Part shown: positions 5,849 to 21,251 of the stretch, piece by piece
Position numbering within the stretch: the first letter of the stretch is position 1
How the letters are laid out: the number at the start of each line of letters is the position of its first letter
Assembly (NCBI GenBank): GCA_026129685.1
Contig: JAHCHO010000002.1
Span: forward strand, 434,001-498,000
Direction of reading: 5' to 3'
DNA length: 64,000 bases
DNA from: Fimbriimonadaceae bacterium
Lineage (GTDB): Bacteria > Armatimonadota > Fimbriimonadia > Fimbriimonadales > Fimbriimonadaceae
Position numbers and translations under genes: made by a program
The notes under the pieces: generated by a model
Database searches by the model: none
Told to the model about the DNA's origin: nothing
Seen by the model: only the letters and a program-made list of their open reading frames with translations

Positions 5849-7861
5849 ATGATGAAGCGGGGAATTCTCCTCGTCGCTTTCCTCGCACCTACGCTCGCGG
5901 GAGCGCAGTCCGTCGCTTACGAGACGCGCGGCGAGACGCTGGGCGCGACGCTCCGCGCGATCGGGCAACGCATTGGCAAGCCGATCGAGGTGGACGGCGT
6001 CCTCGCGAACGAGATCGTGATCGTGCGAACCAAGTCTCGCCCGGTCGAGGACGTTCTGCGTCAGGTCGCCGGGGCGGTCGGTGGGAAACTCGAAACCTCG
6101 AACGGCGGTTGGCGGATCGCGGCCGACGCGGAGGTCCAAACCGCGCAAGAGAAGGCGGATTTCGCGCGCCGCCTCGAGACCCTCCGAACGGCGCTCGCCG
6201 CCCGGCGCAAGCGGTTGGACGACCAACCCGAGTTCGGTGAACGCGATGCGCGCCTGCTGGTGGCGCGCCTCCAAGCGTTCGAGAAAGACCGGCAGCGCGA
6301 TCCCATGGCGGCGGGAACCACCTTCAGCGACCTTTGGGCGGCCACCCCCGACGGACGGCTGGTAACGCGCGTTCTCACGGGCGTCGGCGCCGAAGCGCTC
6401 GCGGCAATCGAGCCAGGACAGAGAGTCGTGTTCACCGAGCGACCCAACCGTCTGCAGCGTCCGCTTCCCCCGATGGCGGCGATCACCGATCGCTACTGGG
6501 CCGAGTTCAAGCCGATGGCGGACGAAGTCGCGGGAAAGGAACTCACCGGGTTCGCCGCAATCGCCATGCCAGAGAAGCGCCCCACCCGATGGCTTCTCGA
6601 GGCCAAGCGAGGTCCGTTCGAGAGCGGTCTGGAGGTCACCCTAAAGGGGTATGACGACGGCGGGATAGTGCGGACGCGCGTGCCGACCGACCTGACGGTG
6701 TCGCGGCTGTTCCGGGGCAGCCCACCGACCCCCAGCGCCGCCGAGAAGCCGTTCGCCTTCTCGCCTGGCGTCAAGCGCATTCTCGCGGAAATGGCGAAGG
6801 GGTTCCTCGGCGGCCAGTCGGACGTCTACCTGCCGGAAGACGTTCGCAAACCGTTGCGAGACCCCGTCGCCAACGATCCCCTCTCGTGGTGGGTGGCCGA
6901 TGCGCTGTTCGCCCTTGCCGCCCGGGAAGATCGGGACCTCGTCGCCTGCGTCCCCGATCTCGTGCTGTTACCGACCCTGATGATGGCGGCGATGGAGTTC
7001 GAGGCGCCGAGGGCCGGCGCCTTCGAAACATACCTGGCGGGCGAGGCGGCCACGCTGACGCGGCCGGAGGGGTGGTTGCTTGTCTCGCCCCGCAGTTTCC
7101 GCTGGTCGCGCGAACTGCGGACCGACCGACGCATTCTCAAGGTCTACCTCGAGGCGGTCGCGAGAGGTGGGGCCACTTTCATCGAAACGGCACAGTTCGT
7201 CTACGGGGCCCCTCGCGCGTTCTCCGACAGCATTGCCCCCTACTACCTGTTGATCGTGGCGCCGGAGAGCATGGAGGCCCTGTCGTCGATCAACGACCAC
7301 TCGCTTCTTCGCATCGTCGGCTCCCTGAGTCCGGTGCAACTTGCTTCCGCCGGCTCCGGGACCATCGTCCCGATCGGGGCCTTTTCGCCCGAAACGCGCA
7401 AGGAGGTTGAATCTTACGTGTTTGGGCCCTACGCCCAAGAGCCGACGCACCTCCCCGACCCGGTCCCGGCGGCCAGCGGGCTCGGCTTCGCCGCCGACGA
7501 GCCGACGGTGCGCTATGCGAACGGTCTATCGCCCACCTTGTCGCTCGCCGTCGCCCCGTACGGGACGTCGTTCGTGTTGCGCGCCCTCGAGGAAGGCGGC
7601 GCCCCGCCCCCGCGCGATTGGGAGGAGCCCGCCAACCTCCACCGGCGTTTGGCGACGAAGACAGAGGCCGACCTGGCCCGGTTCCGATTCATGGTCGGCG
7701 AGCGGACGACGGTCACCGTCGCGCTCCACTACGAACCCGGACTGGCGACATCCGCCACGTTTCGGCTCGTTCGGATTCAGAGCGCGGAGCCTCGGCCCTT
7801 CGCCGGTCTCCCGGAGGCGGTCCGGCGCGCCCTCCTGGGCGGGACGCCGCTCAGGTCCTAG
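5849..7861 (+). CDS. Secreted protein with STN-like N-terminal domain, function unknown
   Basis: A 670-residue protein with a clear signal peptide (MMKRGILLVAFLAPTLAGAQS). Residues about 20-90 (SVAYETRGETLGATLRAIGQ, then PVEDVLRQVAG) resemble the secretin/TonB short N-terminal (STN) fold, which occurs in secretins and TonB receptors. The remainder does not look like a secretin beta domain or a TonB barrel, and I recognise nothing in it. A charged, coiled-coil-prone stretch follows the STN part. It stands alone between a terminator and dedA. The start could be 5849 or 5852. Confidence 0.65.
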   Translation: MMKRGILLVAFLAPTLAGAQSVAYETRGETLGATLRAIGQRIGKPIEVDGVLANEIVIVRTKSRPVEDVLRQVAGAVGGKLETSNGGWRIAADAEVQTAQEKADFARRLETLRTALAARRKRLDDQPEFGERDARLLVARLQAFEKDRQRDPMAAGTTFSDLWAATPDGRLVTRVLTGVGAEALAAIEPGQRVVFTERPNRLQRPLPPMAAITDRYWAEFKPMADEVAGKELTGFAAIAMPEKRPTRWLLEAKRGPFESGLEVTLKGYDDGGIVRTRVPTDLTVSRLFRGSPPTPSAAEKPFAFSPGVKRILAEMAKGFLGGQSDVYLPEDVRKPLRDPVANDPLSWWVADALFALAAREDRDLVACVPDLVLLPTLMMAAMEFEAPRAGAFETYLAGEAATLTRPEGWLLVSPRSFRWSRELRTDRRILKVYLEAVARGGATFIETAQFVYGAPRAFSDSIAPYYLLIVAPESMEALSSINDHSLLRIVGSLSPVQLASAGSGTIVPIGAFSPETRKEVESYVFGPYAQEPTHLPDPVPAASGLGFAADEPTVRYANGLSPTLSLAVAPYGTSFVLRALEEGGAPPPRDWEEPANLHRRLATKTEADLARFRFMVGERTTVTVALHYEPGLATSATFRLVRIQSAEPRPFAGLPEAVRRALLGGTPLRS

Positions 7862-15985: not shown

Positions 15986-16014
15986 TTGCCGTCGGGCGGA
16001 TTCCGTCGTATAAT
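15986..16014 (+). promoter_or_regulatory. Sigma-70-type promoter of the riboswitch operon
   Basis: TTGCCG at 15986-15991, a 17-base spacer and a perfect TATAAT at 16009-16014. Transcription should begin near 16021, just before the first aptamer stem. This is the best promoter in the window by consensus. Confidence 0.85.
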
Positions 16015-16020
16015 AGGACC

Positions 16021-16139
16021 AAGCATCAAGAGCGATCTCGCGAAAGCGAGGTCCGGCAACCGAGGTTTGAGACGCCAACGGTGCCTTGCGACGAACGTCG
16101 CGATGTGCGGACCGAGAGGTCCGAACGGACAAGGTCTCG
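16021..16139 (+). ncRNA. SAM-I/IV-like riboswitch aptamer
   Basis: A four-way junction is visible. P1 pairs 16023-16027 with 16102-16106. P2 is an 8-bp stem, 16034-16041 with 16046-16053, closed by a GAAA tetraloop. P3 (16059-16066 with 16074-16082) is bulged, with loop TTGAGAC. P4 pairs GCGAC with GTCGC (16088-16101). The core has ATCAAGAG after P1, GGCAACC at 16055-16061 and GGTGCC after P3, as in the SAM-I clan. The P3 loop GAGAC (16069-16073) is complementary to GTCTC at 16134-16138. A pseudoknot there, together with a tetraloop-capped P2, is the SAM-IV or SAM-I/IV arrangement, not classic SAM-I. A terminator follows and a metK homologue lies downstream, which supports S-adenosylmethionine as the ligand. 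Confidence 0.85.
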
Positions 16140-16146
16140 AAACGCG

Positions 16147-16188
16147 GCCCCGCGTTCCGCTCGATGTGGAACGTGGGGCTTTTTGTTT
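16147..16188 (+). terminator. Intrinsic terminator of the SAM riboswitch
   Basis: A 12-bp stem, GCCCCGCGTTCC with GGAACGTGGGGC (one G-T pair), 9-base loop, then TTTTTGTTT. It forms the expression platform between the aptamer and the first ORF. High SAM should favour termination and low SAM read-through. Confidence 0.88.
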
Positions 16189-16227
16189 CCGCCCCCTGGT
16201 GCGACTTCGAATGCAAGGACAAGTCGC

Positions 16228-16329
16228 ATGCAATACGAACCGATCCTCTCCGAAGACGGCCCGGAACTGACCGGCCAAGACCTCTACCTCGCCTGCCTCG
16301 CCGTGTTCCGGCCGGAGTCGGCGGTATGA
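16228..16329 (+). CDS. 33-residue ORF at the head of the riboswitch operon
   Basis: ATG at 16228 to TGA at 16327-16329 encodes 33 residues (beginning MQYEPILSEDGPELTGQ). Its stop overlaps the ATG of the MoxR gene (ATGA), as do most later junctions in the operon, so it probably is translated and couples MoxR translation. No hydrophobic segment or known domain is present. It could be a structural partner of the complex or only a leader ORF. The next in-frame start upstream lies inside the aptamer, so 16228 is preferred. Confidence 0.5.
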   Translation: MQYEPILSEDGPELTGQDLYLACLAVFRPESAV

Positions 16330-17705
16330 GCGGGATGCTCTCTTCGCTCGGCGTTTACGGATTCGACGCCATCGAGCCCCTGATCCTGTCCGCCTTGGTC
16401 ACCGAGGACCCGTTGCTCCTGATCGGCGAGAGCGGGACGGGCAAGACCTACCTCCTCAACTCGCTGAGCGAAGCGTTGGGCCTCGAGCATCGGCACTACA
16501 ACGCCAGCCTCGTCAGCTTCGACGACCTGGTCGGCTTTCCCTACCCGGACGAGGACAAGGCAACGGTGCGCTTCCTCGAGACACCGGCGACGGTCTGGGG
16601 CGCCGAAAGCGTGCTCGTCGACGAGATCAGCCGGTGCAAGCCGGAGCACCAGAACCGCCTCTTTTCGCTGATTCACGAACGTCGCGTGCAGGGCGTCGCG
16701 CTGCCGAAGCTCCGCTACCGCTGGGCGGCGATGAACCCCTGTTCACCCGATCAGGGGGGCGACTACGCGGGCAGCGAACCGCTCGACCGGGCCTTGGCGG
16801 ACCGCTTCGGCCTTATCGTGGACGTCGTGGACTGGAAAGACCTGTCGGACGAGGATCGTCTGCGGGTGGCGGACCCGGCGGGAGAGGGCCAGATCTCGGA
16901 AGACGACGGCTTTCTCGCCGGACGTCTCTTCGGCTGGCGCCAGCGCTTCGAGTCCCTGCTGAAAACCCCGCCGGAGAACATCGTCCAGTACGCCTCGACC
17001 TTGGTGACCGCCCTCAACGACGGCGGGACCCGGGTCTCGCCACGGCGGGCGCGCATGATCGCGCGAACCCTCCTGGCCTGGTCCGTCGTGGAAGGAAGGA
17101 CGGCGAGCGAAGAGGCTTTCCGAGACATCGCGGAATGCTCGATGCCCCATCGCGCCTACGGGGCGACCGTCACCCGTGAAACGATCGCCGCCGCCCATCG
17201 GGCGGCCTGGGACGCCTCGATGTGCAGCGGCACCCAACGGTGGGTGAACGAGTTTCACCTGGCCCGTAATCTCGCGCGGAAGGTCGAGAAACTCCTGGAC
17301 CATTGCCCAAGTCCAGACGCGGGCACGATGGCGCTGTGCCAGGCGCTGGCCCATGAGGATCCGGCGATGGCGGCCGCCCTCGCGTTCGTCCTCTATCCCG
17401 CGGCAGCCCTCGGCAAACTGCCGATCGGGTCCGAGGCGGTGAACGACCTCGGTCTGGTCGCACAGCCGATCTTGCGAGTCGATGCGGAAATCGACTGGCG
17501 GGAGCCCTACAAGGCGTCGGGTACTCAGCACCCGGCGTTCGATACGATCGGCCCCGTGCTCGACCGACTACGCGGCGCCCGGCTGAAACGCGCGCGTCAG
17601 TTCTTCTACTGGACGATCGCGGAGGGGCTAGCCCTCCGCGACCCGGAATCCCTTGAGAGGGACATTGAGCGAGCGGTGAGCCTCGTTTCCCGGAGGTTGG
17701 GATGA
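16326..17705 (+). CDS. MoxR-type AAA+ ATPase of the riboswitch operon
   Basis: A 459-residue cytoplasmic AAA+ protein. Walker A is GESGTGKT (residues 34-41), Walker B is SVLVDE (D99, E100), sensor 1 lies in WAAMNPCSPD, and an arginine-finger region reads DRALADRFG. The VGFPYPD insert and the helical lid match MoxR/CbbQ-like ATPases. These usually remodel a client together with a VWA protein, and an HExxH/VWA gene lies two genes downstream. The C-terminal 200 residues are an extension I do not recognise. ATGA overlaps link it to both neighbours. Expected control is by the upstream SAM riboswitch. Confidence 0.88.
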   Translation: MSGMLSSLGVYGFDAIEPLILSALVTEDPLLLIGESGTGKTYLLNSLSEALGLEHRHYNASLVSFDDLVGFPYPDEDKATVRFLETPATVWGAESVLVDEISRCKPEHQNRLFSLIHERRVQGVALPKLRYRWAAMNPCSPDQGGDYAGSEPLDRALADRFGLIVDVVDWKDLSDEDRLRVADPAGEGQISEDDGFLAGRLFGWRQRFESLLKTPPENIVQYASTLVTALNDGGTRVSPRRARMIARTLLAWSVVEGRTASEEAFRDIAECSMPHRAYGATVTRETIAAAHRAAWDASMCSGTQRWVNEFHLARNLARKVEKLLDHCPSPDAGTMALCQALAHEDPAMAAALAFVLYPAAALGKLPIGSEAVNDLGLVAQPILRVDAEIDWREPYKASGTQHPAFDTIGPVLDRLRGARLKRARQFFYWTIAEGLALRDPESLERDIERAVSLVSRRLG

Positions 17706-18154
17706 GCGGAGCGTTCGCCTGGATCGAGTGCATGGGTCCGCCAACGCGGGCGCGGAACGAGCGGCTCTTTGCGACGGTCCTCGGCCATCGCGACGGCCCG
17801 CTCGTCTGTCCTAAGGTCGTGCGGGTCGGGTTGCGCTTCCTGGACGGAAGCGACCCGGTAAAGGTGATCGAGTCCCTCGCCAAGTCGCGGTCGGTCAAGA
17901 ACGCCGAGAGCGCAAGGGCGCTCTTCGCCGGCCGGATCCCTGCGGGGCCTCGCTTGGCGTATCCGGCGTCGGGCGTGTTTCCTCGGCTGTCCGCCCACGA
18001 TTCCGACCCGGATCGGGTCCTCTGGACGGCGGTCGTCCTCGGCCTCTGCACCGCCACCTACTACGATCCCGCACGCACCGTTCTCTGGACGCGGGCGAGC
18101 CTTGTCCGCCATCTCGACCTCTTTGCCACGGAGGGATTCTATGCGCTTGACTGA
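17702..18154 (+). CDS. Unknown 150-aa protein between MoxR and VWA genes
   Basis: A 150-residue protein with no domain I recognise. It has mixed alpha/beta character with few charged clusters; CPKVVRVGLRFLDGS and TAVVLGLCTATYYD are possible core strands, and no signal peptide or membrane segment is evident. It overlaps the MoxR stop by four bases and the next gene by 14 bases, so it is made in step with both and is probably a dedicated subunit or adaptor of the MoxR-VWA pair. Confidence 0.65.
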   Translation: MSGAFAWIECMGPPTRARNERLFATVLGHRDGPLVCPKVVRVGLRFLDGSDPVKVIESLAKSRSVKNAESARALFAGRIPAGPRLAYPASGVFPRLSAHDSDPDRVLWTAVVLGLCTATYYDPARTVLWTRASLVRHLDLFATEGFYALD

Positions 18155-19439
18155 GGAGTACTCTCGACGCCTGGTCGTCGAGCTGATCGAAGAGAACCCG
18201 TTCGCGGTGCGGCCCGTGCTCCAGATTCTGGAGACGCGGTTCACCGACACGGTGCCGACCCTCGCGGTCAGCCTCCAGGAGCGGCCCGTTCTGCTCGTGA
18301 ACCTGGCTTTTTTGGCGCGACACTGCCGAACGGACGAACACGTTAAGGCGTGCCTGTTGCACGAGTTCCTCCACGTGTTGCTCGGGCACACGAGGCGCTT
18401 CAAGGAGATCGGGTTCAACCTGAACGTCGCCCTTGACGCGGTGATCAACGCGATCATCCACCGGACGGCCGGGACCGCGTACTCCGACTTCTTCACCCGT
18501 TACTACGGGCAGCGTCGCGACGTGATGGCGCTCCTGCGTCCGCCAAGACCGACGAGTGGCCGAGGGTTCCGGAACCCGGGCGGTTCGGAAGCGTTGGGAC
18601 GGGCTTGGCAGGATCTCTACGAAGGCAAGCTGGTCGCCGACGACATTCTCGACCTGGCCAAGACAATGCCGCCACCCGATGGCGACGTGGTGTTCGTCGG
18701 CAATCACGAGGGCCTTCGGTGGGACGACGAGAGTCCGATGGCCGGGGCCATCCAGGAGAGCCTTCGCCAGATCCGAGTTCCGGGCATCTGGCCGGGCGGC
18801 GCCGGACGCCCGAGCGCCTTCGATTGCCGGGCCGATCACCGGGCGGTCGCGCTCGAGCGCTGGAAGAGCCGTACCTTCGCCGTACTCAAGCGGCACCTGG
18901 TCCCGGATCGTCGCGGGCTTGCCGAAGCGTCGGACCGGCCCTACCGATTGCCAATCCCGAGCCCGCGCGATCGGCGAGGCTTCCTGCGCGCCCTCTGGTC
19001 GCCGATCGTCCCCGAGTTCGAGTGGGCGGGTTCCACGACGCGTCCGATCGGGGCGGCGAACGTGTACCTCGACGTTTCCGGCTCTATGAACCACGAAATG
19101 CCGCTGATCATCGAGCTTCTCTTCCAGCTTCGTCGCGCCATCCGCACCCCGTTCTGGGCGTTCAGCAACGAAGTCGCGCCGGCGACGATCCGGGACAGCC
19201 GGCTGGAGACGACGACGACGGGCGGCACGAGCATGAACTGCGTGTTGCGGCACCTGGAGCGGACACGACCGCCCTCGGCGGTCGTGGTCACGGACGGGTA
19301 CATCGAGCCGGTCGATCAGCAGTGCCTCCATCGCGTAGGCAAGACACGACTGGTCGCCGTGGTCACCCGCAAGGGCTCGACGGCAGAGCTGGAGCGCGCC
19401 AGCATCCCCTTCGTCCAACTGGAGGAACTCCCGCGATGA
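18141..19439 (+). CDS. Putative metallopeptidase-VWA protein (DUF2201-like)
   Basis: A 432-residue protein. The N-terminal part carries a zinc-protease helix HEFLH (H74, E75, H78) in CLLHEFLHVLLGH, as in DUF2201_N. The C-terminal part is a VWA-like domain with an apparent metal-ion-dependent adhesion site: DVSGS (D311) and a later TGGTSMN. The middle is long and unassigned. The start at 18141 has a strong Shine-Dalgarno (GGAGGG, five bases upstream) inside the previous gene. VWA proteins are the classic partners of MoxR ATPases. Whether the HExxH centre is an active protease is unknown. The last four bases overlap the metK-like gene. Confidence 0.82.
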   Translation: MRLTEEYSRRLVVELIEENPFAVRPVLQILETRFTDTVPTLAVSLQERPVLLVNLAFLARHCRTDEHVKACLLHEFLHVLLGHTRRFKEIGFNLNVALDAVINAIIHRTAGTAYSDFFTRYYGQRRDVMALLRPPRPTSGRGFRNPGGSEALGRAWQDLYEGKLVADDILDLAKTMPPPDGDVVFVGNHEGLRWDDESPMAGAIQESLRQIRVPGIWPGGAGRPSAFDCRADHRAVALERWKSRTFAVLKRHLVPDRRGLAEASDRPYRLPIPSPRDRRGFLRALWSPIVPEFEWAGSTTRPIGAANVYLDVSGSMNHEMPLIIELLFQLRRAIRTPFWAFSNEVAPATIRDSRLETTTTGGTSMNCVLRHLERTRPPSAVVVTDGYIEPVDQQCLHRVGKTRLVAVVTRKGSTAELERASIPFVQLEELPR

Positions 19440-20527
19440 TCCGCGTTTCGGAGGCCGTGTTGCCGGGGCACCCGGACAAGCTCTGCGATCGGATCGCCGA
19501 CGAGATCGTGGCGGAGGCCTACCGAGCCGACGACCGTGCGTGCGTTCAGGTCGAGATGGCCTGCTGGCGAAACGAGTTCACCTTGACCGGTCACGTCGTG
19601 GCGCGTCGGCCCGTCCGGACTCTTTTGGCCGACATTGTTCGGCGGGTAGCGAACGAGGTGGGCTTCTGCGGGGAGAACGCCGTTCAGGCCGATCGCTTCG
19701 ACGTCCGGTGCGCGGTCGGGGTCGTCCGGGACGACCCGCGCGAGTGGACGGACCGAGTGAACGATCAGAGCATCGTCGTGGGCTACGCGGGCTACGATGC
19801 CAGGACCCGTTGGCTGCCGCCCGAGCACTTCCTCGCGCTTGCTCTGAGCGAGGCGCTTGCAGATTCGTGCCGGAACGGGGCGCTCCAGGGGCAGGGCCCG
19901 GACGGCAAACTCCTGGTGCGAGTGCGGGAATCCGGAAACGAGTGGGCGCTGGAACACCTGCTGGTCAGCCTCCAGCATCTTGACCACACGCCGCTCGCCG
20001 AGTTGTGCGGCCTCGTGGTCCGGGTGCTGCGCGACGCCTACGAGGCGATCCGCCGAGGCGACCCCCGGTGGGTCCTGCCATTCGACGACGTCGGGCTCAT
20101 GGTGAACCCCAACGGCCCCTTCCTGAAAGGGGGGCCGCTCGCCGACAACGGTCAGACCGGACGCAAACTCGTGGTGGACCAGTACGGGCCCCGGGTTCCG
20201 ATCGGCGGGGGGGCCCTGTCCGGGAAGGACCTTTCGAACATCGATCGGGCGGGCGCCTACGCGGCACGAGCGGCGGCGGTGGCGACGGTGGCGGGAGGAG
20301 CGACGGAGTGCCGGGTGCGGGTGTGCTACGCGCCCAACGTCTCGAGGCCGCTCGACGTTGGTTGGGATTTGGTCGGCCGGGGACCGCGCTTTGACGACGC
20401 ATGGTTCGATCACCGGTCGGTGGTCGCTTGTTTCCCGGCGGCTTGTTTCGACCCGCGCGTCGCCTCGAGGGGGCACTACCACGACCTTGACCTGCCCTGG
20501 AATCGGCCTACCCGGGAGGACCCTTGA
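19436..20527 (+). CDS. Divergent S-adenosylmethionine synthetase (MetK-like)
   Basis: A 363-residue MetK homologue, shorter than the usual 380-400. Conserved features are GHPDK (H12, D14, K15), VEMACW (potassium-site Glu), NDQ for the usual GDQ, PDGK, a QH pair in VSLQH, GGP then TGRK, and GGGALSGKD. Unusual features, from comparison with E. coli MetK recalled from memory: the GEI Glu after the first strand is His (TGHV), the PTGRF Arg is Pro (PNGPF), and the second Lys of SGKDPSKVD is Asn (SGKDLSNID). It could still make SAM, work with an altered substrate, or be a sensor. The ATGA start overlaps the VWA gene, and the operon lies behind a SAM riboswitch. Confidence 0.85.
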   Translation: MIRVSEAVLPGHPDKLCDRIADEIVAEAYRADDRACVQVEMACWRNEFTLTGHVVARRPVRTLLADIVRRVANEVGFCGENAVQADRFDVRCAVGVVRDDPREWTDRVNDQSIVVGYAGYDARTRWLPPEHFLALALSEALADSCRNGALQGQGPDGKLLVRVRESGNEWALEHLLVSLQHLDHTPLAELCGLVVRVLRDAYEAIRRGDPRWVLPFDDVGLMVNPNGPFLKGGPLADNGQTGRKLVVDQYGPRVPIGGGALSGKDLSNIDRAGAYAARAAAVATVAGGATECRVRVCYAPNVSRPLDVGWDLVGRGPRFDDAWFDHRSVVACFPAACFDPRVASRGHYHDLDLPWNRPTREDP

Positions 20528-21251
20528 CCGATCGGGAGTGGGCACTCGCCGAGTTGGGTCTCGACGTTACGGCGCGGTACGAGGACGTGGAAGCGGCGCG
20601 CGCGGCGCGCTTGGCGTCCGCGACCCCGGAGGGGGCCAAACGAGTCGAGTACGCGCGCGACACCCTCGTTTTCTGAGACCTGTCCGGCGAGTACCCGTTC
20701 GGCTCTCCTTTGGAGCCGGAACCGACGCTCGCAGATCCGTCTCCGACAGACACGCTGTGCGATCCGACCGACACGCCCGCCTTGGGCTGTCCCCCGCCGG
20801 CCGACGAGCCCCGAGACCTTGCCGGCCGAATGCGGCAAGGGGCCCTGGTGCTGCTCCGCACGATCGCTTACTTTGGCAGCGCGCTTCTGGCGGTCTGTTG
20901 CCGGGTTTGTTCGTGTTCGGGGTATGGGCGACATACGAGTTCGTGTCGGGACTGGTCAGGCCGCCGCCCGGGTTGGAGCGCCCGCTCGGTCGCAACGTTC
21001 ACCCGAGGTCGTCCTCGATGGACCCCAGACCTCGGGTCGACGATGACACCGACTACCGCGACTCGGTCAAGGAACCGCTTCTTGAGGAGGATCTTGGGCC
21101 ACCGAAAGACCCCGACGCCACCAGGTGGCGCGGCGACTTCCTCGACGATATTGGAGACCCGGGAGACGACCCCTACGAGCCACCCCCGCTTGAATACGAA
21201 GAACCGGAAGACGAATGGGGCGGAGATCCACCCCTTGTGGACGACTACTAG
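20524..21251 (+). pseudogene. Broken membrane-protein gene with J-like N-terminus
   Basis: A TTG at 20524 overlaps the metK-like stop (TTGA) and opens 50 codons that end at TGA 20674-20676. The same frame continues coherently after the TGA (Pro/Asp/Thr-rich, then RTIAYFGSALLAV), and the protein-like reading then moves by one base near 20880-20905 into LPGLFVFGVWATYEFVSGL and a strongly acidic tail ending at 21251. Joined, this gives a protein of about 240 residues: a J-domain-like helix pair without HPD (LGLDVTARYEDVEAARAARL), one membrane segment and an acidic C-terminus. One TGA (a TGG would read Trp) and one frameshift separate it from an intact gene. Decay, assembly error or recoding are all possible. 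Confidence 0.6.

Follow-up and report, generated by a model that had tools for sequence, protein, structure and literature searches.

A SAM riboswitch-headed operon joining a MoxR–VWA pair to a divergent MetK-type enzyme in Fimbriimonadaceae and other bacteria

In NorQD, CbbQO and CoxDE, a pair consisting of a MoxR-type AAA+ ATPase and a VWA protein serves the enzyme encoded next to it. Cells of every kind use S-adenosylmethionine (SAM) as their main methyl donor, and SAM riboswitches normally precede genes of methionine and SAM metabolism. Here, we describe an operon in which both kinds of element are combined. It is located in a stretch of 64,000 nucleotides (the window; positions 434001–498000 of contig JAHCHO010000002.1) from the genome of a Fimbriimonadaceae bacterium (GCA_026129685.1; 3.94 Mb in 18 contigs) and contains a SAM riboswitch followed by genes for a MoxR-type ATPase, a protein of 150 amino acids (p150), a protein with an HExxH and a VWA domain, and a divergent MetK-type enzyme (MetK'). 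An earlier note, made from the letters of the window alone, had proposed an undescribed SAM-tied system at this site, and the recurrence of the same gene order in about 17 phyla, with SAM riboswitches upstream, bears this proposal out.

One of the closest described arrangements is that of NorQ and NorD, which serve in the activation of nitric oxide reductase; it likewise combines a MoxR AAA+ protein with a VWA protein containing a metal ion-dependent adhesion site (MIDAS) next to an enzyme. The module differs from it by the additional HExxH N-domain, by p150 and the SAM riboswitch, and by a MetK-type enzyme in place of the reductase. The Rubisco activase CbbQ-CbbO and the CoxD-CoxE pair are also encoded in operons with their client enzymes, and a CoxE-like VWA profile matches 5 of 57 members of the VWA family of the module, whereas the client, the peptidase-like domain, p150 and the mode of regulation are different. 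By sequence, the VWA protein belongs to the DUF2201 (PF09967/PF13203) VWA-metallopeptidases, for which we found no report of a MetK partner and know of no function; the module offers a lead to the function of these proteins. MetK' shares with bacterial MetK (EC 2.5.1.6) the fold family and the residues for ATP, Mg, K+ and tripolyphosphate, but differs in four replaced residues (E55, Q98, K269, I302), a shorter gating loop and its position in a separate clade. The regulatory part resembles known SAM riboswitch regulons (SAM-I, SAM-I/IV, SAM-II) in its Rfam-recognised aptamers and terminator platform. A further likeness exists to the MoxR-vWA ternary conflict systems (PMC7159879), which contain MoxR, a vWA protein that may be joined to a peptidase, and a third core protein (VMAP, iSTAND or bp); the module differs from these in having p150 as third protein, MetK', the SAM riboswitch and a fixed gene content. 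None of 69 p150 sequences gave a Pfam match to VMAP, iSTAND or bp, the fold search with p150 was empty, and bpMoxR stayed below its cut-off. For 108 neighbours, the 25 top-scoring Pfam families included no effector-associated domain, although these domains were not searched one by one. In the open-access literature of PMC, we found nothing describing the operon or linking a SAM riboswitch to a MoxR/VWA operon. All parts belong to known superfamilies, and the whole is apparently of no described kind. A widespread module which places an AAA+ remodelling machine and a MetK of altered acceptor site together under SAM riboswitches would point to a new branch of SAM metabolism or to a SAM-related defence.

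The window operon and its recurrence across phyla

The operon in the window consists of the following features, given with coordinates and strand.

15986–16014, + strand: sigma-70-like promoter TTGCCG-17-TATAAT (10 of 12 consensus positions; 1 found against 0.4 expected)
16018–16139, + strand: SAM-I/IV riboswitch aptamer (RF01725, 42.3 bits, gathering score 41.1)
16146–16187, + strand: intrinsic terminator after the aptamer, a candidate expression platform (hairpin 16146–16180, 15-pair stem and U tail)
16228–16329, + strand: leader open reading frame (ORF) of 33 amino acids (60% over 30 amino acids in the nearest relative, locus L009, only)
16326–17705, + strand: MoxR-type AAA+ ATPase (AAA_5/AAA_3 above cut-off)
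17702–18154, + strand: p150, core protein of 150 amino acids between MoxR and the VWA protein (ORF recurring in related loci)
18141–19439, + strand: DUF2201-type protein with a HExxH metallopeptidase-like N-domain and a MIDAS VWA C-domain
19436–20527, + strand: MetK', divergent enzyme of the methionine adenosyltransferase (MAT) family (three S-AdoMet_synt domains above the Pfam cut-offs)
20524–20676, + strand: ORF of 50 amino acids overlapping the MetK' stop by 4 bases

The promoter, aptamer, terminator and overlapping genes named in the earlier note were all found again, and the overlaps of 4 or 14 bases it had reported agree with the ORF coordinates (4, 4, 14 and 4 bases between the 33-aa ORF, MoxR, p150, VWA and MetK' genes). 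The aptamer lies in the leader, 187 bases 5' of the MoxR gene, and the terminator hairpin has a fold z-score of −5.3. By sequence comparison, the 33-aa ORF is outside the conserved core. The 50-aa ORF had been taken for a broken J-like membrane protein, which did not hold up: it shows no Pfam match at E ≤ 1 and has no counterpart in the operons of the four nearest relatives, and it probably lies outside the system. The operon is flanked by genes for a DinB-type polymerase upstream and a tricorn-like protease downstream on the opposite strand.

To determine the spread of the module, we scanned the genome contigs of GTDB with an alignment of the VWA protein as the sole query, and the other three genes were sought afterwards. 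The best 80 of 202 relatives yielded 78 loci, and the resulting spread is a lower bound which leans to close relatives. The co-occurrence counts leave out near-duplicate loci and those truncated at the end of a contig. A MoxR gene was present beside the VWA gene in 72 of 72 testable loci, p150 was detected in 70 of 72 by profile search, and 61 of 63 contained a MetK-type gene, located directly downstream in 56 cases and only upstream in five. The order MoxR-p150-VWA-MetK' was observed in about 17 phyla, as taken from the record annotations of carriers that are mostly metagenome-assembled genomes, whose labels can be wrong. They include Pseudomonadota, Acidobacteriota, Verrucomicrobiota, Bacteroidota, Elusimicrobiota, Myxococcota, Actinomycetota, Spirochaetota, Gemmatimonadota, Latescibacterota and Cloacimonadota, besides the Armatimonadota (Fimbriimonadales) of the window and its relatives; carriers with strain names are Cnuella takakiae (L063) and strain IMCC26134 (L074, complete genome). 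Gene junctions of −4 or −14 bases are seen again in different phyla. No fifth recurrent gene emerged when all ORFs of the loci were clustered or when the neighbours were scanned with Pfam. The co-occurrence beyond close relatives, on which the earlier note had made the idea of a functional unit depend, is thus present, and on the evidence of sequence the four genes form one unit. Within the closer relatives, the unit is sporadic: of 61 genomes searched for p150, 4 contained it, including the source genome, and of 291 genomes belonging to the phylum, 5 encode a MetK' of more than 40% identity. All five retain the gene order and contain a separate ordinary metK. A single in-frame stop or frameshift affects one core gene in L022, L080, L081, L084, L086, L087 and in G298:C5:12728-13030; in metagenome-assembled copies, these may reflect assembly errors or decay.

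SAM riboswitches upstream of the module

A SAM riboswitch was recognised upstream of the module in 54 of the 67 loci having upstream sequence. At 29 loci the Rfam gathering score was reached, and two covariance models built from these detected the other 25 (E < 0.01), all on the strand of the module and 5' of either MoxR or a MetK gene linked to MoxR. SAM-I/IV riboswitches account for 38 loci, SAM-II for 14 and SAM-I for two, and terminator-like hairpins 3' of the aptamer were also present in L009, L011 and L022. As a control, we analysed 20 housekeeping metK loci of carrier genomes, including that of the window genome, and only one contained a riboswitch at the gathering score. This indicates that the riboswitch belongs to the module and does not follow the hosts' habit for metK. 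The idea that the carrier genomes usually place such a riboswitch at their housekeeping metK can thus be dismissed.

SAM-II riboswitches are structurally unrelated to SAM-I and SAM-I/IV. Their presence beside the two other classes shows that the operon came under SAM control on more than one occasion, and this strongly supports the view that the SAM level is what matters for it. From the known behaviour of these riboswitch classes, the operon is probably switched on when the SAM of the cell runs low: at plentiful SAM, the aptamer would bind SAM and the transcript would stop at the terminator, and a fall in SAM would lead to the joint production of the four overlapping genes. The module would thereby carry its own SAM off-switch.

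In L010, L031, L082, L083, L085, L091 and L098, the region upstream of MoxR contains not one but two or three consecutive SAM-I/IV riboswitches. They are mostly separated by a small gene, as if cassettes of one riboswitch and one gene had been stacked.

The MetK-type enzymes of the module

MetK' belongs to the S-AdoMet synthetase superfamily, as evident from three Pfam domains above their cut-offs and invariant catalytic residues, and it falls outside the metK equivalog TIGR01034 (166.2 bits vs. a cut-off of 309.4). Residues are numbered after E. coli MetK, whose sequence served as a ruler; the canonical MetKs have the same residues as this ruler at the sites considered here, with scattered variation at positions 98, 99, 101, 102 and 229. 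In all 55 MetK' sequences, E8, H14, D16, E42, D118, Q119, D163, K165, D238, R244 and K245 are unchanged, K265 and D271 are kept in 54 of 54 aligned sequences and K17 in 53 of 55. With catalytic residues this constant, MetK' is unlikely to be a dead enzyme. The changes are found on the methionine side: E55 is lost in 55 of 55 sequences, Q98 is kept in just eight of 55, K269 is replaced by histidine in 52 of 55 (by asparagine in the window copy) and I302 by proline in 55 of 55; F230 is mostly leucine, and the gating loop is seven residues shorter than in canonical MetK. In MetK, Glu55 holds the amine of methionine, and Gln98 and Lys269 its carboxylate; archaeal MATs lack this set and bind methionine by other residues (PMC3853416). 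Judging from these replacements, an acceptor other than free methionine is plausible for MetK'. More distant homologues in L099 and L101 show E55 replaced by arginine, Q98 by glycine and I302 by proline, but have kept K269.

In a phylogenetic tree, the 55 MetK' sequences form one clade (98/98) apart from canonical MetK. Because the Armatimonadota copies of L011 and L022 nest among proteobacterial MetK' sequences (97/90), away from the window copy, the tree indicates horizontal transfer. In a genome of the same genus (G002), the module occupies another chromosomal site than in the window genome, and the 8 kb adjoining its dinB gene contain neither the module nor a tricorn gene. The simplest alternative, an ordinary, fast-evolving metK operon of a single lineage, has practically no chance of being correct in spite of the membership of MetK' in the MetK superfamily. 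It is refuted by the separate canonical metK, which the source genome and the carrier genomes contain as well, and by the existence of one MetK' clade spanning many phyla.

It is also very unlikely that MetK' serves as a regulatory subunit which makes no SAM itself but joins the housekeeping MetK through the dimer interface common to both and tunes it. Such a role would agree with the location of MAT active sites between two subunits (PMC3853416) and with an altered methionine side next to an intact ATP side. However, catalytic residues kept in 55 of 55 sequences are not expected of such a subunit, and the module moves among phyla with different housekeeping MetKs.

Some modules contain a MetK with a canonical-type methionine pocket. 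MetK' is absent from the Opitutae loci L064, L065, L067 and L074 and from L094, and in these cases a MetK of the canonical type is encoded between the riboswitch and MoxR, with another canonical metK present elsewhere in the genome, including the complete genome of L074. Five further loci (L041, L043, L045, L047 and L101) combine a linked canonical MetK with MetK' or a distant homologue of it. Because a dedicated canonical MetK either replaces or joins MetK', we conclude that a MetK-type enzyme is a functional partner in the module, and the five loci holding both kinds imply that they are not simply interchangeable.

These findings bear on two readings of the enzyme. One is backup SAM synthesis: MetK' would be a MAT that recognises methionine differently but yields the ordinary product, stepping in whenever the housekeeping enzyme is inhibited or overrun, and MoxR, p150 and the VWA protein would activate or assemble it in the way CbbQO acts on Rubisco. 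The riboswitch upstream fits this role, as do the canonical-pocket MetKs which stand in for MetK' in the Opitutae and L094 modules or accompany it in the five others, and the alternative methionine binding of archaeal MATs (PMC3853416). We nevertheless consider it rather unlikely, as the five loci with both enzymes would not retain interchangeable copies, and as the methionine-contact positions have changed together and stayed so (I302P in 55/55, K269H in 52/55) around fixed ATP residues. The other reading, which we regard as doubtful but worth stating, assigns MetK' a new activity in the MAT superfamily. It would transfer the adenosyl group of ATP to a different thioether or to a protein-held methionine presented by MoxR, p150 and the VWA protein. 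In this way, bacteria short of SAM would obtain a substitute for it or a new kind of adenosyl-sulfonium modification.

A more remote MetK relative, 31% identical to MetK', is encoded on two IMG/VR contigs of about 93 kb (L007, and L008 at 6001–6939).

The putative MoxR–VWA machine and the surroundings of the module

The Walker A and B motifs of the MoxR protein are conserved in the family. Among proteins of solved structure, the AAA modules of midasin are closest to it in sequence. In the VWA protein, H74, E75 and H78 of the HExxH motif and the MIDAS residues D311, S313, S315, T363 and D385 are invariant in 57 of 57 aligned sequences. DUF2201 is matched by 27 of the 57 members and the metallopeptidase domain DUF2201_N by 21 (E ≤ 0.001), and the window copy is below the curated DUF2201 cut-off. 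Its structural model (pLDDT 85.9) gave NorD of NorQD as the best Foldseek match (9qhe, E 7.6e-5); the VWA domain filled the list of matches, so the N-domain was barely probed by fold. A MoxR AAA+ protein adjoining a VWA protein with intact MIDAS, as in chaperone pairs of the NorQD/CbbQO type, was found at 72 of 72 loci. The p150 copy of the window had no match in Pfam, NCBIfam or PADLOC, and no credible Pfam match was obtained for 69 family members. Although its AF2 model is confident (pLDDT 87.6), Foldseek and VIA-align found no match for it in the PDB. The first 30 residues are modelled with low confidence, yet they share the motif N-x-GGP-x-SR-x-R, which suggests that the N-terminus folds on a partner.

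Taken together, we tentatively favour, at somewhat less than an even chance, a system for SAM shortage in which MetK', an adenosyltransferase whose acceptor site has been rebuilt, is the client of a machine like NorQD or CbbQO. MoxR, p150, the HExxH/VWA protein and MetK' would make up a self-contained, horizontally moving module. Gene order and fold suggest that MoxR and the VWA protein form a remodelling machine of the NorQ/NorD and CbbQ/CbbO kind, for which p150 would be the dedicated adaptor. We infer the neighbouring MetK-type enzyme as the client, because MoxR–VWA pairs serve the enzyme encoded beside them in NorQD, CbbQO and CoxDE; the machine may assemble, metallate or reactivate it. 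MetK' itself would be an active ATP-dependent adenosyltransferase, since the residues for ATP, Mg, K+ and tripolyphosphate are invariant, and would either adenosylate something besides free methionine or recognise methionine in a new way. This may keep adenosylation going under SAM shortage or provide a substitute sulfonium. The suggestion of the earlier note that the MoxR–VWA pair handles the MetK-like protein has been strengthened by the almost constant presence of a MetK-type gene, and because modules without MetK' (Opitutae, L094) carry a dedicated second MetK with canonical residues in the operon.

Several observations weigh against this favoured reading. It leaves the HExxH domain unexplained, and no observation ties the action of the MoxR–VWA pair to MetK' rather than to a protein encoded elsewhere. 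The aptamer of the window scores just 1.2 bits above the gathering threshold, and a riboswitch was not recognised at 13 of 67 loci. No MetK is encoded near the modules of L046 and L097, and in the MetK of the Opitutae modules the methionine pocket is complete. Finally, the loss of pocket residues is no proof of a new acceptor, because archaeal MATs bind methionine without E55, Q98 and K269 (PMC3853416).

The genes around the module are relevant for another alternative, a role in phage defence or counter-counter-defence. SAM depletion, e.g., by phage SAM lyases, would turn the module on, whereupon the MoxR–VWA machine would unleash the HExxH peptidase, or MetK' would restore or replace SAM. Such lyases do lower SAM (PMC7877911), and MoxR-vWA pairs with peptidase-fused vWA proteins have been proposed as cores of defence systems (PMC7159879, PMC12839542). 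The sporadic presence of the module (4 of 61 relatives) and its transfer also fit, as do genes for C5 DNA methyltransferases close to it (L009 11523–13828, L010 12723–13916, L049 3754–5289) and for an AbiEii toxin, Sir2 and integrases at some loci. We still regard this role as unlikely. PADLOC had no match for p150, the VWA protein or MetK' and only weak generic ATPase matches for MoxR; the neighbours are mixed, with neither a consistent defence gene, which speaks against membership in defence islands, nor a hypervariable effector. In addition, no VWA homologue was found in the collections of viral contigs, plasmids and phages, and a phage or plasmid origin was rejected on this ground.

Several other genes were observed near individual modules. 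In ten Verrucomicrobiota modules, a protein of 76–102 amino acids is encoded between the riboswitch and the next gene (L059 5642–5950, L064 4700–4963, L065 4681–4956, L067 4620–4886, L069 5668–5949, L070 3674–3946, L072 5707–5937, L074 3593–3862, L075 2453–2722 and L078 5662–5892). The copies have the motif N(H/N)G(T/S)W(W/F) in common, which recalls the N-terminus of tyrosine integrases, and the L065 copy is without a Pfam match. Histone-deacetylase-like and YbjN-like genes are located between a SAM-II riboswitch and MoxR (L040 2874–3824, L055 4079–4939, L055 5280–5846 and L052 4841–5470); the former were assigned by a Pfam match in L055 and by eye in L040, the latter by a Pfam match in L055 and by eye in L052. 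Locus L047 contains a gene of the nucleosidase/phosphorylase superfamily (PF01048, 3186–3902), possibly for a methylthioadenosine/S-adenosylhomocysteine nucleosidase, which together with a canonical metK shares the riboswitch-headed stretch with the module. A small Cys/His-rich protein with the motif CPxC...C(E/S)HxxG is encoded near the module in unrelated taxa (L047 2496–3128 and 5204–6118, L067 1960–2502, L074 2717–3199), its L074 copy having no Pfam match. Downstream of the module, a Rhodoferax and a Chitinophagaceae record each contain a gene for a PnuC-type nicotinamide-nucleoside transporter (PF04973; two members, L040 11188–11781 and L066 11258–11902).

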